A DNA stretch of 63,440 nt. Origin: an uncultured bacterium. GTDB lineage: Bacteria > Krumholzibacteriota > Krumholzibacteriia > LZORAL124-64-63. A program made the position numbers and the translations under genes. The stretch covers positions 1 to 63,440 of the forward strand of contig CAIWHK010000037.1 of NCBI GenBank assembly GCA_903912525.1, written 5' to 3'. Positions within the stretch are counted from its first letter, which is position 1. Every line of letters begins with the position of its first letter. Of the stretch, positions 26,593-30,537 are shown one piece after another. Under the pieces are notes generated by a model. It worked only from the letters and a program-made list of their open reading frames with translations, did no database searches and was not told where the DNA came from.

Positions 26593-27579
26593 ATGAAGAC
26601 CCCCGTGAACAATCCCCGGTCGCGCGGCATCCTGGCGCCGGCCGTGACCGCGGCCCTGCTCCTTGTGGCGGCGGGCGCCGCGACGGCCGCCACGCGGCCC
26701 GTCAACGAGCAGGGGCGCATGCCGGCCGACGGCCAGGTGACGATCGAGAACGTCGCCGGCTCGGTCAAGGTGGTCGCCTGGGACCAGGCCGAGATCCGCG
26801 TCACCGGCACGCTCGGCGAGGACGTCAAGGAACTGGAGTTCAGCGCCGGCGCGCGCAGCGTCGTCAGGGTGGTCTATCCCGAGCGCCGCGGGATGCATTT
26901 CAACGGACTTCGTCACAAGGACAAGGGCAAGGACAATGACGCGCAGGACGGGCCGTCGATTCGCGACGACGCGGGCGCCGACCTGACGATCTCGGTGCCG
27001 CGCGGCTGCCGCCTCGAGGTCGAGGTCGTCTCGGCGGACGTCGACGTGACGGGCGTCACGAACGAGGTGTCGGTCACCGCGGTCAGCGGCAAGGTCGGCG
27101 TGCGCGGCGCGTGCAGCCGCCTGGAAGTGGAGAGCGTCAGCGGTGATGTCGAGGTGGACGGCGCCGGCAGGCAGACCGAGGTCACCACGGTATCGGGCAA
27201 CCTGCAGGTGCGCTGCGACGACGCCGACCTGCAGGTGGAGACCGTGACCGGGGATGCGAAGGTGGACTGCGCCAGTCTGCGCAGTCTTGAGGCCGCCACG
27301 GTCAACGGGACGATCACGATGTCCGGCCGCCCGGCGGCGGGCGCGCAAATCGAGGCGGAGTCGGTCAACGGCAACCTGACCCTGGTCGTGCCGGGGGATG
27401 TCAGCGCCGCCTTCGAGGTCTCGACGTTCAATGGCGGCATCGAGAACGCCTTCGGCCAGAAGGCCGAACGCACCGACAAGCATGTCCCCGGCCAGGAATT
27501 GACGTTCACCAACGGCAAGGGCGAAGCCGACGTGAGCCTCAACACGCTCAACGGGAAGATCGTCATCCTCAAGAAATAG
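26593..27579 (+). CDS. Exported DUF4097 family beta-helix protein
   Basis: 328 residues with a signal peptide (AVTAALLLVAAGAATA, cut near 33). The mature part is a repeated beta-strand pattern (GQVTIENVAGSVKVVAWDQAEIRVTG, then VSVTAVSGKVGVRGACSRLEVESVSGDVEVDG, and EAATVNGTITM, ESVNGNLTLVV), the putative-adhesin DUF4097/4098 fold. A charged loop (HKDKGKDNDAQDGPSIRDD, about 112-130) interrupts it. AAGGAG precedes ATG 26593. Third gene of the sigma operon and the likely envelope output or sensor; its ligand is unknown. It is followed by a large palindrome. Confidence 0.85.
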   Translation: MKTPVNNPRSRGILAPAVTAALLLVAAGAATAATRPVNEQGRMPADGQVTIENVAGSVKVVAWDQAEIRVTGTLGEDVKELEFSAGARSVVRVVYPERRGMHFNGLRHKDKGKDNDAQDGPSIRDDAGADLTISVPRGCRLEVEVVSADVDVTGVTNEVSVTAVSGKVGVRGACSRLEVESVSGDVEVDGAGRQTEVTTVSGNLQVRCDDADLQVETVTGDAKVDCASLRSLEAATVNGTITMSGRPAAGAQIEAESVNGNLTLVVPGDVSAAFEVSTFNGGIENAFGQKAERTDKHVPGQELTFTNGKGEADVSLNTLNGKIVILKK

Positions 27580-27590
27580 CGATGCGCGGC

Positions 27591-27658
27591 GGACACATGA
27601 AGATCCCGGGCAGTCCTCGGCCTTCGGCCTGCGGATAGCCCGGGATCGTCATGTGTCC
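27591..27658 (+). repeat. Large palindromic repeat, copy 1 (also likely terminator)
   Basis: 21-base arms GGACACATGA-a-GATCCCGGGC (27591-27611) and their near-perfect complement (27638-27658, one mismatch) flank a 26-base centre containing CTCGGCCTTCGGCCTGCGG. It begins 12 bases after the DUF4097 stop and lies between two convergent genes, so it can terminate both. The inner 46 bases match copy 2 (28420-28465) at all but two positions when both are read on the strand of the gene they follow. Confidence 0.8.
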
Positions 27659-27695
27659 CCCACGCATCGACAGCGGCGTCGGCAGCGCGGGCGTG

Positions 27696-28295
27696 CTAGC
27701 GGAAGAGGGCCTTGACGTCGCCCCAGCTTGCCGGGGTGTCGCCGACAACGGCCTCGGTGCTCACGGCGTCGAGGTACGCGAAGTGCGCGTTCGCGTTCTG
27801 CAGGCAGCGGAAGCGCAGCGTGGCGCTCGCATTGTCGGCGATGAACGTGAAGTTCTTCGATCCGTACGTAATGACGCTGCTCACGTTGGTGTGAGAGAAG
27901 GTCTGCGACTGCGCATCGGCATCGACCACGATCTGGCAGGTGCCGTCGCGCCCGGAGGCGGCCAATGTGCCGAGCATGAACGTGATCGTGTAGGGCACGC
28001 CCGGCGTCGTGGCGAAGGTCTGCTGGATGCCGCCGGCCGAGTACACGTAGCAGGCCAGGTCAACGACATGGAGCCCGTCCGGCGCGGGTGCGCCGCCCGA
28101 CGACCCGAGGGTCCATTCGACCCCGTTGTCGGTCGTGACCCAGCCCGGGATGATGCTCGAGCCTCCCGAAACGATCATCCAGCCGACCGTGCCCGCAGCG
28201 GGCTCGAACGACCCGTTGACGATCTGGGCTCCCGCCGGCCCGGCGGCCACCCCGAATGACACCAGCAAGGCAACAACGGTAGCAATACGAAGCAT
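27696..28295 (-). CDS. Exported DUF642-like (choice-of-anchor C type) protein
   Basis: 199 residues. A signal peptide (MLRIATVVALLVSFGVAAGPAGA) is followed by IVNGSFEPAAGTVGWMIVSGG...IPGWVTTDNGVEWTLGSSGGAP and GLHVVDLACYVYSAGGIQQTFATTPG, the NGSFE...GW...VD/VDL pattern of DUF642/choice-of-anchor C domains (galactose-binding-like folds). A C-terminal ASWGDVKALFR resembles the end of the dehydro-anchored secreted proteins. ATG 28295 is chosen over an upstream in-frame ATG because GGGGGGAAG lies 4 bases before it and a consensus promoter sits just upstream. It is monocistronic and flanked on both sides by related palindromes. Binding target unknown. Confidence 0.78.
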   Translation of the reverse strand: MLRIATVVALLVSFGVAAGPAGAQIVNGSFEPAAGTVGWMIVSGGSSIIPGWVTTDNGVEWTLGSSGGAPAPDGLHVVDLACYVYSAGGIQQTFATTPGVPYTITFMLGTLAASGRDGTCQIVVDADAQSQTFSHTNVSSVITYGSKNFTFIADNASATLRFRCLQNANAHFAYLDAVSTEAVVGDTPASWGDVKALFR

Positions 28296-28330
28296 GTTCT
28301 TCCCCCCGGTTAGGTAAAAATCAGAGGGAA

Positions 28331-28358
28331 ATTGTATCGTATTGTGAGCAATTGTCAA
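28331..28358 (-). promoter_or_regulatory. Consensus sigma-70 promoter of the DUF642-like gene
   Basis: Minus strand TTGACA (28358-28353), 16 bases, TACAAT (28336-28331): the strongest promoter match in the window, in an AT-rich patch. The predicted transcript start is about 30 bases before ATG 28295. ACAAT recurs three times at exact 10-base spacing through the promoter (ATTGT at 28331, 28341 and 28351 on the plus strand). Confidence 0.75.
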
Positions 28359-28400
28359 TAGGGGTCATTCCGGGCCGCCAGGACTGTGGCCTTCGAGCCT

Positions 28401-28484
28401 GGCGAGGTAGGGAAACGAAGATCCCGGGCAATCCGCAGGCCGAAGGCCGAGGACAGCCCGGGATCTTCGTTTCCCTACCTCGCC
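28401..28484 (-). repeat. Large palindromic repeat, copy 2 (also likely terminator)
   Basis: Perfect 29-base arms (28401-28429 and 28456-28484) around a 26-base centre. The inner part (GAAGATCCCGGGC ... GCCCGGGATCTTC) is the core shared with copy 1; the outer GGCGAGGTAGGGAAAC arm is private to this copy. It lies 3 bases beyond the stop of the M2 peptidase gene and has the same orientation relative to that gene as copy 1 has to DUF4097. Confidence 0.85.
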
Positions 28485-28487
28485 ACG

Positions 28488-30368
28488 CTAGAACGCCACC
28501 GTCCTCCCGACGTTCTGCTGCTCCAGCCAGGTCTGCAGGGGGGCGTAGTACTCGAGGAGCGCGGCGCTCGACAGGTCCTCGCCCGTCGCCTCGCGCATGA
28601 CCTGGGCCCAGTCGCGGGTGGCGCCCAGCCGCAGGATCGAATCCAGATAGTCGCCCGCCGCCTTACTGCCGTAGTAATTCGCCGCGTGCACGTCCTGGTG
28701 CAGGATCTCGCGGCAGATGTAGCGGTGCAACTGGTGCAGGATGACCTCGCTGAGCGCGTAGTCGTAGTACTGCGCCGGGTCGTCGATCACGTGCGTCTTG
28801 GTTGCCGGGTCGCACCATTCCTCGCCGCGCGGTTCGGGCGGGACGATGCCCTGGTAACGTGCCGCGTACTCCCACCAGCGCGTGTTGTAGAGGCTGCGCG
28901 GCAGGTCTTTCTCGTACAGGTCGTATTCCCAGTGGGTCATCGTGCCGCAGGCGAACGGCAGGAAGACCACGGGGCCCGTCAGCGCCTGGTTGAGCAGCCA
29001 GCGGATATTGTCGGGGGGCGCTTCGGCCGTCACAATGCCGGCCTGGGTCAGGTAGGGAACCTGCCCGGCAGCGAGCTCGATCAGCGTGCCGATGCCCTCG
29101 TGGAAGGCGCGGTTGGCGCCTTCGCGCAGGATGGGCGGCACCTCGGGCCGGCTGTAGGCGAGGTAGTAGTACACGTGGCCCAGTTCGTGGTGCGTCGTGC
29201 TGAACCACTCGTAGTTCGACTTGACGCTCATCAGGGCGCGAACGTCCTGGTCCAGGTCCACGTGCCAGGCCGAGGCGTGCGTGTTCTTGCGGCGCGCCGA
29301 ATCGGGCGGCAGTTCGTACAGGTCGCTGCGGGCCCAGAAGTCGGCCGGCAGGCGTGGGAAGCCCATCGAGACGTAGAAGCCCTCGGCCTGCTGCACGATC
29401 CAGCTGGGCTGCACCTGCTTCAGCTTCGCGTCGAGGTTGATGTCCTCGACGATGCCCGGCCAGGCCTGCCCGTAGCGGTTGTCCAGCCAGTGCGCCGGGA
29501 TGCGGTCGGGGACCGGCTGGTTGTAGCGGCGGGCCAGTTCGTAGCGTGTCCAGCAGTGCAGCTGCTGGTACAGCGGCATGATGCCGACGACCAGGTCGTC
29601 CATCAGCGCCATCATCTCGTCGGCGCTCATGCCGTAGTTGTCGGTCTCGAGCCCGAAGTACGACGAGAAGCCCATTTCCCGCGCGACACCGTTGCGCAGG
29701 CCCTGCAGGTCCACCAGCAGGTCCTTCAGTCGCGGGCCGACGTCCTTGCTGCATTCCCAGGCCGCCTGGCGCAGCTTCAGGTCGCGGTTGCCGGCCACCA
29801 TCTCGTCAAGCAGGTTGGGCGTCACCGATCGCTCGGGACGACCCGGCACCTTCAGCGTCCAGGTGGTCGCGTAGAGGCTGTCGGTGGCCTGGGCCTCGGT
29901 AGAAATCAGGTAACGCACGCGCTCACCGACCGGTGCGGGGTAGTGGGCCGCCAGGCGCCAGGCGGCGTTCATCTGCCGCTCCTGAAGGGGCGTCACGTCC
30001 CCGCGGCCGCGCATCACACGCAGCTTCTCGATGACCTCGGCGCTGCCCACGTAGTCGCCCAGCGCGCGACCGGCCTCGACGCGCGCGCGCGAATTCGCCT
30101 CGGTGATGTCGGACTCGGCGGTGAACTTGGCGCCCTCGGCGGCCGCCCACAGGGTCCGGTAGCGGGCGTTGTACTGCTCCAGGAACAGGGCGACATCCTC
30201 GGGGCCGGCCGGCTCGACTGCCAGTCCGGGCACCAGGGGCGGGGCCTCCGTGCGGCTGTGCGCCTCGACCGGTTTGGCCGCCCGTGTGTCCCGGGTCAGG
30301 TACCAGACGGACATGATGCCGGCCGCGAGCATGGCCATGCCGAGGCCGGCGAGGGTGCGCGGATGCAT
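28488..30368 (-). CDS. M2-family (ACE-like) zinc peptidyl-dipeptidase, membrane-anchored or exported
   Basis: 626 residues. The gluzincin motif H394-E-L-G-H398 is followed by Glu424 in REGANRAFHEGIG, giving the two His and one Glu zinc ligands; the spacing is two residues longer than in animal ACE. Further M2 signatures are LQGLRNGVAREMGFSSYFGLE and KNTHASAWHVDLDQDVRALMSVKSNYEWFSTTHHELGH. An N-terminal hydrophobic segment (LAGLGMAMLAAGIMSVWYL, about 5-23) acts as signal or anchor. ATG 30368 is preferred: AAAGGA lies 9 bases upstream, whereas the in-frame TTG at 30377 abuts it. Family members remove C-terminal dipeptides from peptides. It is separated from the DHS-like gene by a terminator. 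Confidence 0.92.
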   Translation of the reverse strand: MHPRTLAGLGMAMLAAGIMSVWYLTRDTRAAKPVEAHSRTEAPPLVPGLAVEPAGPEDVALFLEQYNARYRTLWAAAEGAKFTAESDITEANSRARVEAGRALGDYVGSAEVIEKLRVMRGRGDVTPLQERQMNAAWRLAAHYPAPVGERVRYLISTEAQATDSLYATTWTLKVPGRPERSVTPNLLDEMVAGNRDLKLRQAAWECSKDVGPRLKDLLVDLQGLRNGVAREMGFSSYFGLETDNYGMSADEMMALMDDLVVGIMPLYQQLHCWTRYELARRYNQPVPDRIPAHWLDNRYGQAWPGIVEDINLDAKLKQVQPSWIVQQAEGFYVSMGFPRLPADFWARSDLYELPPDSARRKNTHASAWHVDLDQDVRALMSVKSNYEWFSTTHHELGHVYYYLAYSRPEVPPILREGANRAFHEGIGTLIELAAGQVPYLTQAGIVTAEAPPDNIRWLLNQALTGPVVFLPFACGTMTHWEYDLYEKDLPRSLYNTRWWEYAARYQGIVPPEPRGEEWCDPATKTHVIDDPAQYYDYALSEVILHQLHRYICREILHQDVHAANYYGSKAAGDYLDSILRLGATRDWAQVMREATGEDLSSAALLEYYAPLQTWLEQQNVGRTVAF

Positions 30369-30537
30369 CGGGCGCAATCCTTTGCCGAAGTGGACGCCGC
30401 CCAGGGGGGCGTGTCGGCCGGTGCGCTCGGAGCCCGCCGCGGCGGGCGCCGGCGCCGGGCGGCCGCGGCGCGGAACCTAATGTGCCACAGGGGGGCCAAG
30501 GAGGAAAGCATCGATAGGGAAGGCTGCCGGCGGGCAC

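Follow-up and report, generated by a model that had tools for sequence, protein, structure and literature searches.

Two neighbouring gene ends in a 63,440-nt stretch of DNA from an uncultured member of the Krumholzibacteriota (hereafter the window, by which we mean the whole stretch that was analysed) carry long palindromes with nearly the same centre and largely different arms. This raises the question of what such a hairpin does just after a gene, and of how its arms can be complementary within each copy while differing between copies. The second part touches an old question, namely whether long RNA stems are kept paired by selection that passes through G.U intermediates or by copying of one arm from the other during replication.

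Two palindromes of the window

The initial annotation recognised both palindromes from the letters alone, and they are real. They are the strongest inverted repeats of the window and, in a repeat search, its two longest near-perfect ones with close arms, other long pairs reaching 72-79% complementarity. Copy 1 folds at -70 kcal/mol (z = -9 against shuffled sequences) and copy 2 at -110 kcal/mol (z = -17), and the covariance model of the element matches both. They are longer than had been noted (27591-27658 and 28401-28484; full extents in Table 1). Both had been said to begin just after a stop codon, which holds for copy 1, directly after the TAG of the DUF4097 gene; copy 2 starts around the TAG of the peptidase M2 gene and overlaps it. 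Copy 1 faces the end of the DUF642 gene, and copy 2 sits just before a promoter-like site of that same gene.

Table 1. Coordinates of the two palindromes and adjoining features in the window.
Feature	Position	Strand	Context	Basis
Copy 1, whole palindrome	27580-27669	+	sense with DUF4097 gene 26593-27579	arms 27580-27616 / 27633-27669, 86% complementary (37 nt)
Copy 1 core, GTCCTCGGCCTTCGGCCTGCGGAT	27613-27636	+	opposed A.A at 27612 and 27637	invariant positions, 39 aligned copies
Copy 1 left arm	27580-27611	+		32 nt, 29 Watson-Crick with right arm
Copy 1 right arm	27638-27669	+	wholly different in species G002 orthologue	complementary to left arm
Stop codon TAG, DUF4097 gene	27577-27579	+	upstream of copy 1	
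Copy 2, whole palindrome	28380-28505	-	sense with peptidase M2 gene 28488-30377	arms 28380-28434 / 28451-28505, 89% complementary (55 nt)
Copy 2 core	28431-28454	-	opposed T.T at 28430 and 28455	
Copy 2 5' arm (gene direction)	28456-28505	-	includes stop codon 28490-28488	50 columns, 46 Watson-Crick
Copy 2 3' arm	28380-28429	-		
Promoter-like site TTGACA-16-TACAAT	28331-28358	-	downstream of copy 2, upstream of DUF642 gene	consensus scan, 11/12

Read in the direction of the gene, the common part of the two copies is GATCCCGGGC-N-GTCCTCGGCCTTCGGCCTGCGGAT-N-GCCCGGGATC, 46 bases, and the reported count of 44 matches was reproduced; both differences belong to a single pair of opposed bases, which is A.A in copy 1 but T.T in copy 2. 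These 46 bases had been taken as the core of the element and are indeed common to copies 1 and 2, but the family-wide part is only GTCC...GGAT with the flanking mismatch. The arms had been called private, and they do differ between copies and are complementary within each one, except that they have in common a G/C clamp by the core and an A-rich/T-rich stretch.

At the two window sites, the A.A and T.T states are swapped between species G000 and G002. A change of the opposed A.A beside the core to T.T, as a pair, is seen in a few copies, including L145 and L281.

Anatomy of the core and arms

The conserved core is an imperfect hairpin of 24-28 nt, GTCCTC-stem-CTGCGGA, in which GTCCTC and CTGCGGAT, the conserved halves, do not form an inverted repeat with one another. 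The outer arms have a median length of 35 bp, are about 96% complementary and are private to each copy. Going inwards from the gene stop, the 5' arm leads into a 6-8 bp G/C clamp; then come one or two mismatches of opposed bases, the core stem and the loop, and the mirror of these parts follows. The opposed mismatches are A.A in the window genus and T.T plus A.A in most other genera. Within the core, GTCC pairs with GGAT, in the window genus with an invariant G.U. Further in, a T opposes a C as a mismatch, and next comes a C-G pair beside which a T is bulged out. The inner stem has 4-5 bp, though a few copies have more; its changes are compensated, and it closes an inner loop that is mostly TTC, TGC or TTT. 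The right arm is T-rich at positions +13 to +20 from the core end, both in the window genus and in the pooled other genera, and in the window genus the left arm is correspondingly A-rich. In almost all copies the core retains its imperfections although the arms are close to perfect, so the core is under a constraint that the arms escape.

Read from the lower strand, most triloops are GAA, GCA, GTA or AAA, with one GTAA; their first and last letters hardly vary and the middle is free. In this they are like GNA triloops, which form very stable DNA hairpins.

Distribution among genomes

The search of the whole genome that the initial annotation called for did turn up further copies. In the window genome (4.29 Mb in 72 contigs), a pattern search and the covariance model, which was built from 39 copies, found about 30 copies of the core GTCCTC-stem-TGCGGAT, and a reversed control pattern had no match in that genome. 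Three further species of the genus have at least 19 covariance-model matches each. Across the family, at least 30 of 38 genomes and at least 11 of 14 genera have a match at E<=0.01, with no copy detected in g3, g6 and g11, and at least 25 of the 38 genomes at E<=1e-4. As scoring took in a limited number of candidates per genome, these numbers are minima, and chance may account for the weakest matches. At E<=1e-4 none of the scored candidates matched in 42 genomes from other families of the class.

The genus-type pattern, scanned exactly against one genome per species of GTDB r220, returned family members and chance matches. We consider the distant core-pattern matches, in Streptomyces and elsewhere, to be chance, because their arms match at 4-9 of 24 positions (about 6 are expected by chance), compared with 15-24 of 24 in most of the complete genuine copies; those in Streptomyces come from a single sequence context that recurs. 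Another pattern, characteristic of other genera, is present in family genomes and was found once outside, in a form without a paired stem. Viral contigs had no match to the genus pattern, and a viral origin was rejected on this ground. Seven loci gave no match in Rfam at the gathering score, and for the window stretch Rfam returned only far-below-threshold matches to miRNA hairpin models and one lncRNA model.

These genomes are draft assemblies, mostly metagenomic where titles are known, and several copies lie at contig ends. Many contigs of G000 end exactly in the element (C11, C19, C25, C40, C41, C42, C43, C45, C52, C54, C58, C68 and C70), which breaks local gene order at these points and probably makes the copy count too low.

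A separate perfect palindrome of 16 bp, CTTGCGCCGGCGCAAG, occurs 171, 126, 82 and 113 times in G000-G003, the four species of the genus, and was absent from four genomes of other genera. It lies, for example, downstream of the element in L136 and L164.

Position at gene ends and inheritance

With gene ends called by a codon-composition rule, no more than 60 nt separate the core from the stop codon of an upstream gene in sense in 115 of the 133 copies with enough sequence, and the median distance from stop to core, among copies with a gene end found, is 39 nt. A converging gene end lies within 60 nt on the other side in 35 of 109 copies. Where there is a gene end on one side only, the core is in sense in 39 of 47 cases and antisense in 8. 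The copies are thus neither restricted to the window nor scattered without relation to gene ends, and the early description of a dispersed gene-end hairpin with terminator-like anatomy is borne out. The place of the stop codon does not set arm length, with which it correlates only weakly (33 copies within 5 nt, 31 expected).

In many cases, orthologous gene ends carry copies in two to four species of the genus. Some sites reach across genera: the element follows infB in genera g1, g7 and g10, the window's DUF4097 gene (copy 1) in g1 and g8, and one conserved gene in g7, g8, g12 and g13. Orthology across genera was judged by how similar the upstream proteins are, and we excluded one cluster whose members were linked through their similar C-terminal domains. 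Because the same gene ends have the same core in several species, and some of them in several genera, many copies are old and vertically inherited. Some relatives lack the element after infB, and several of these carry a plain GC-rich hairpin in its place. Together with the orthologous sites, this argues for vertical inheritance and a role as a gene-end hairpin over recent insertion.

Five of the infB genes without the element (L295, L296, L297, L300 and L313) are followed by a GC-rich hairpin in which the stem varies but NTCCTG in the loop region does not; these may be another family of hairpins with a conserved tip. Separately, the genes upstream of the L005, L007, L014, L052, L136, L140, L149 and L160 elements share a C-terminal domain that has the appearance of a secretion-sorting domain.

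Copies no more than a few kilobases apart resemble each other. Neighbour pairs have the same inner-stem class in 16 of 17 cases, where 3.8 are expected and none of 20,000 random draws was as high, although a few of these pairs are orthologues of each other and not all are independent. The segment GATCCCGGGC, which adjoins the core and is outside its family-wide part, is common to the neighbouring pair of the window, and this fits the general likeness of neighbours. The pattern supports local copying of cores between neighbouring gene ends.

How the arms change

Between orthologous sites the core shows little or no change, and the arms can be almost wholly different yet complementary, for example at sites A and T. 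Arms at sites A, B and T are at random level between species and 88-100% complementary within each copy. Covariation of the arms among copies, which had been proposed for study, is very strong over the 39 copies of the genus alignment, where 222 cells changed on both sides and 2 on one side (to G.U). At orthologous sites, 94 arm cells are two-sided and 27 are one-sided or unpaired, and as orthologous pairs share ancestry these are not counts of independent events.

Covariation of this strength, along with the sense orientation and gene-end position that imply function in a transcript, is what one would look for if the arms were complementary only through selection on RNA structure, by ordinary compensatory mutation and with no arm copying. 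The kinds of change speak against this. Of the 2940 arm pairs in 105 copies, 2823 are Watson-Crick, and the remainder, a tally that mixes related copies, consists of 44 A.C, 22 G.U and 51 others; A.C exceeds G.U with p = 0.009 against equality, the opposite direction to RNA selection. Two-sided changes between orthologues are 62 double transversions and 32 double transitions, the chance ratio of 2:1, whereas in rRNA the type that follows the G.U path makes up 61% of instantaneous changes (PMC8794818). The near absence of one-sided cells in the genus alignment points the same way. Moreover, arms often extend across the stop codon, and the 3' end of the coding sequence is then mirrored in the right (downstream) arm; 34 of 85 reach at least 3 nt beyond the end of the stop. 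Complementarity over 30-50 bp also exceeds what a hairpin tip needs. We therefore think it improbable that RNA selection alone maintains the arms.

The arms change in matched multi-base steps with no preference for G.U, as is expected of a palindrome homogenised by template switching. With no G.U excess, double transversions at the chance ratio and coding sequence mirrored, template switching fits better than compensatory selection through G.U, and we infer, with strong support from these patterns, that the arms are kept complementary by template switching during replication, one arm templating the other. Since the coding side is the constrained one, copying at mirrored coding ends most likely runs from the gene to the intergenic arm. 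The initial annotation had suggested that arms were copied from local sequence, for example by template switching; they do behave as if one were copied from the other, but not through a single copying event at the arrival of the element, since the arms of old copies continue to be replaced as matched pairs.

Template switching at quasipalindromes is a mechanism described in bacteria (PMC7202029), and inversion of the spacer is expected from it (PMC8604942). At two sites between convergent genes, C and H, the core is inverted between species, which template switching may explain, although assembly error is possible there. Inversions at the contig ends L044, L130 and L006 were left out of the count because the core of a palindrome cannot be safely oriented at a contig end.

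Compared with L017 and L018 (G000), the element L142 (G001) combines a left arm from one neighbouring element with a right arm from another, so that its arms match over only 9 bp. It is either a recombination product or a misjoin.

Generic template switching by itself would not predict what is seen, long arms being nearly confined to the core. In 537 kb of DNA, partly overlapping and enriched in copies by design, 73 distinct perfect inverted repeats have arms of at least 22 nt, and 72 of these contain the core; despite the enrichment, it is telling that long perfect arms are so scarce elsewhere. The only repeat of such length without a recognisable core is in L240 from 1391 (G004), where arms of 32 nt are perfect around a 25-nt loop. 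Two explanations offer themselves: selection maintains length in this hairpin alone, or arm copying is promoted by the core. That the core actively directs copying, a host factor at the tip provoking a template switch or priming snap-back synthesis, is in our estimation unlikely. If it were true, the hairpin would be a self-maintaining element whose tip is the only inherited part, and the palindrome around the tip would be extended and repaired, which would account for long perfect arms being found almost only there.

Function at gene ends

The explanation that we favor, with moderate confidence, is a family-specific hairpin at gene 3' ends, likely a terminator, whose arms are matched by template switching and whose core is kept by selection. 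What we observe directly is that a long, near-perfect stem, tipped by the conserved imperfect core, follows right behind the stop codon and in sense with the gene. The transcribed GC-rich stem and following T-rich tract would then act as an intrinsic terminator or transcript 3' end, and between convergent genes would act in both directions. The tip would be recognised by a protein or by RNA polymerase. In replication, template switching would let one arm template the other, so that arms drift freely as a pair and coding sequence is mirrored downstream, with cores at neighbouring gene ends copied locally between each other. The core would resist this type of correction through selection that preserves its mismatches.

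Judging from sequence, an intrinsic terminator or an mRNA 3'-end hairpin would be the most economical function. The GC clamp and stable folds provide the GC-rich stem-loop shortly after a gene end by which intrinsic terminators are recognised, and the clamp is followed by a tract at +13 to +20 with 40-50% T in all genera examined, compared with about 15% elsewhere. As in intrinsic (Rho-independent) terminators, the hairpin comes right after the stop with A-rich sequence before it and T-rich sequence after it, it is often found between convergent genes, and it takes the place of the plain infB hairpin of relatives. Unlike them, the element has a conserved asymmetric tip of 24-28 nt with invariant mismatches and private arms of about 35 bp that reach beyond the T-rich tract, and here termination is predicted from sequence. 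With about half T the tract is moderate, and a run of T is missing from many g1 copies; since the tract lies inside the extended arm, outer-arm pairing could compete, which counts against a terminator. Neither window copy was picked up by a simple consensus scan for terminators. A tip so conserved suggests that a protein or the polymerase reads it; the invariance of the core would need such a reader to explain it, and this counts against the favored explanation. In the window, copy 2 would insulate the promoter-like site of the DUF642 gene from the peptidase M2 gene, which runs in the same direction.

The element could instead work as DNA, with the tip of an extruded or single-strand hairpin bound or cut by a protein in a nucleoid, repair or recombination role, and with its place at gene ends reflecting mere avoidance of coding sequence. 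Arms that look shaped at the DNA level and the GNA-like inner loops of the lower strand are consistent with this. The strong sense orientation, the T-rich tract after the stem and the plain infB hairpin of relatives point to a transcript instead, and to us this reading is doubtful.

Comparison with known repeats

Like REP and BIME sequences, the element is a dispersed, imperfect palindrome with a conserved hairpin in intergenic positions near gene ends, and copy number varies between sites (one or two elements at site F/G), which could suggest mobility through a Y1 (RAYT) transposase or another mobile element, with arms acquired at insertion. Unlike REP sequences, its arms are private and its sites are inherited across species and some genera. 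The Y1 transposase is absent from the window genome, which speaks against RAYT/REP identity; it was not found in G000, G001 or G003 and occurs in only 3 of the 38 family genomes. We saw no longer element with the core at its ends and, given also that viral contigs lack the genus pattern, regard a REP-like mobile palindrome as very improbable. False fold-back joins in assembly hardly deserve credence. They would fit the many copies at contig ends and the metagenomic origin of every assembly, but each palindrome comes to an end and gives way to the next gene, different perfect arms recur at the same sites in independent assemblies of several species and genera, and a fold-back would mirror the flank without limit and could not make a conserved asymmetric core.

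In Neisseria and Haemophilus, two inverted copies of the DNA uptake word form the stem of terminators, and the words number hundreds to thousands per genome. The element resembles these terminators in having a conserved word set in a terminator hairpin, and differs in having one asymmetric tip, about 20-30 copies per genome and free arms. Because CTGCGGAT is not an inverted form of GTCCTC and each copy has arms of its own, we rejected an uptake-sequence terminator.

With template-switched quasipalindromes (PMC7202029, PMC8604942, PMC8794818), the element shares arms probably perfected by copying, matched multi-base changes and possible spacer inversion. In contrast to these, it has one conserved, uncorrected tip at more than 100 loci across a whole bacterial family. 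The coding palindromes of Nematomorpha mitochondria (PMC6649704) are similar in their long perfect inverted repeats, concerted arms and copied coding sequence; they differ in being mitochondrial and inside genes, and the part of that source used here describes no common core.

Meaning for stem evolution and for the family

More than 100 natural replicates with a fixed tip and freely changing arms, many of them at orthologous sites, bear on the old question of how long stems stay paired, and the sign of copying is unusually clean. They also carry a warning that covariation, however strong, need not by itself prove selection on RNA structure. For this uncultured family, they amount to a gene-end element that is absent from Rfam and has been kept at the same gene ends across species and some genera.
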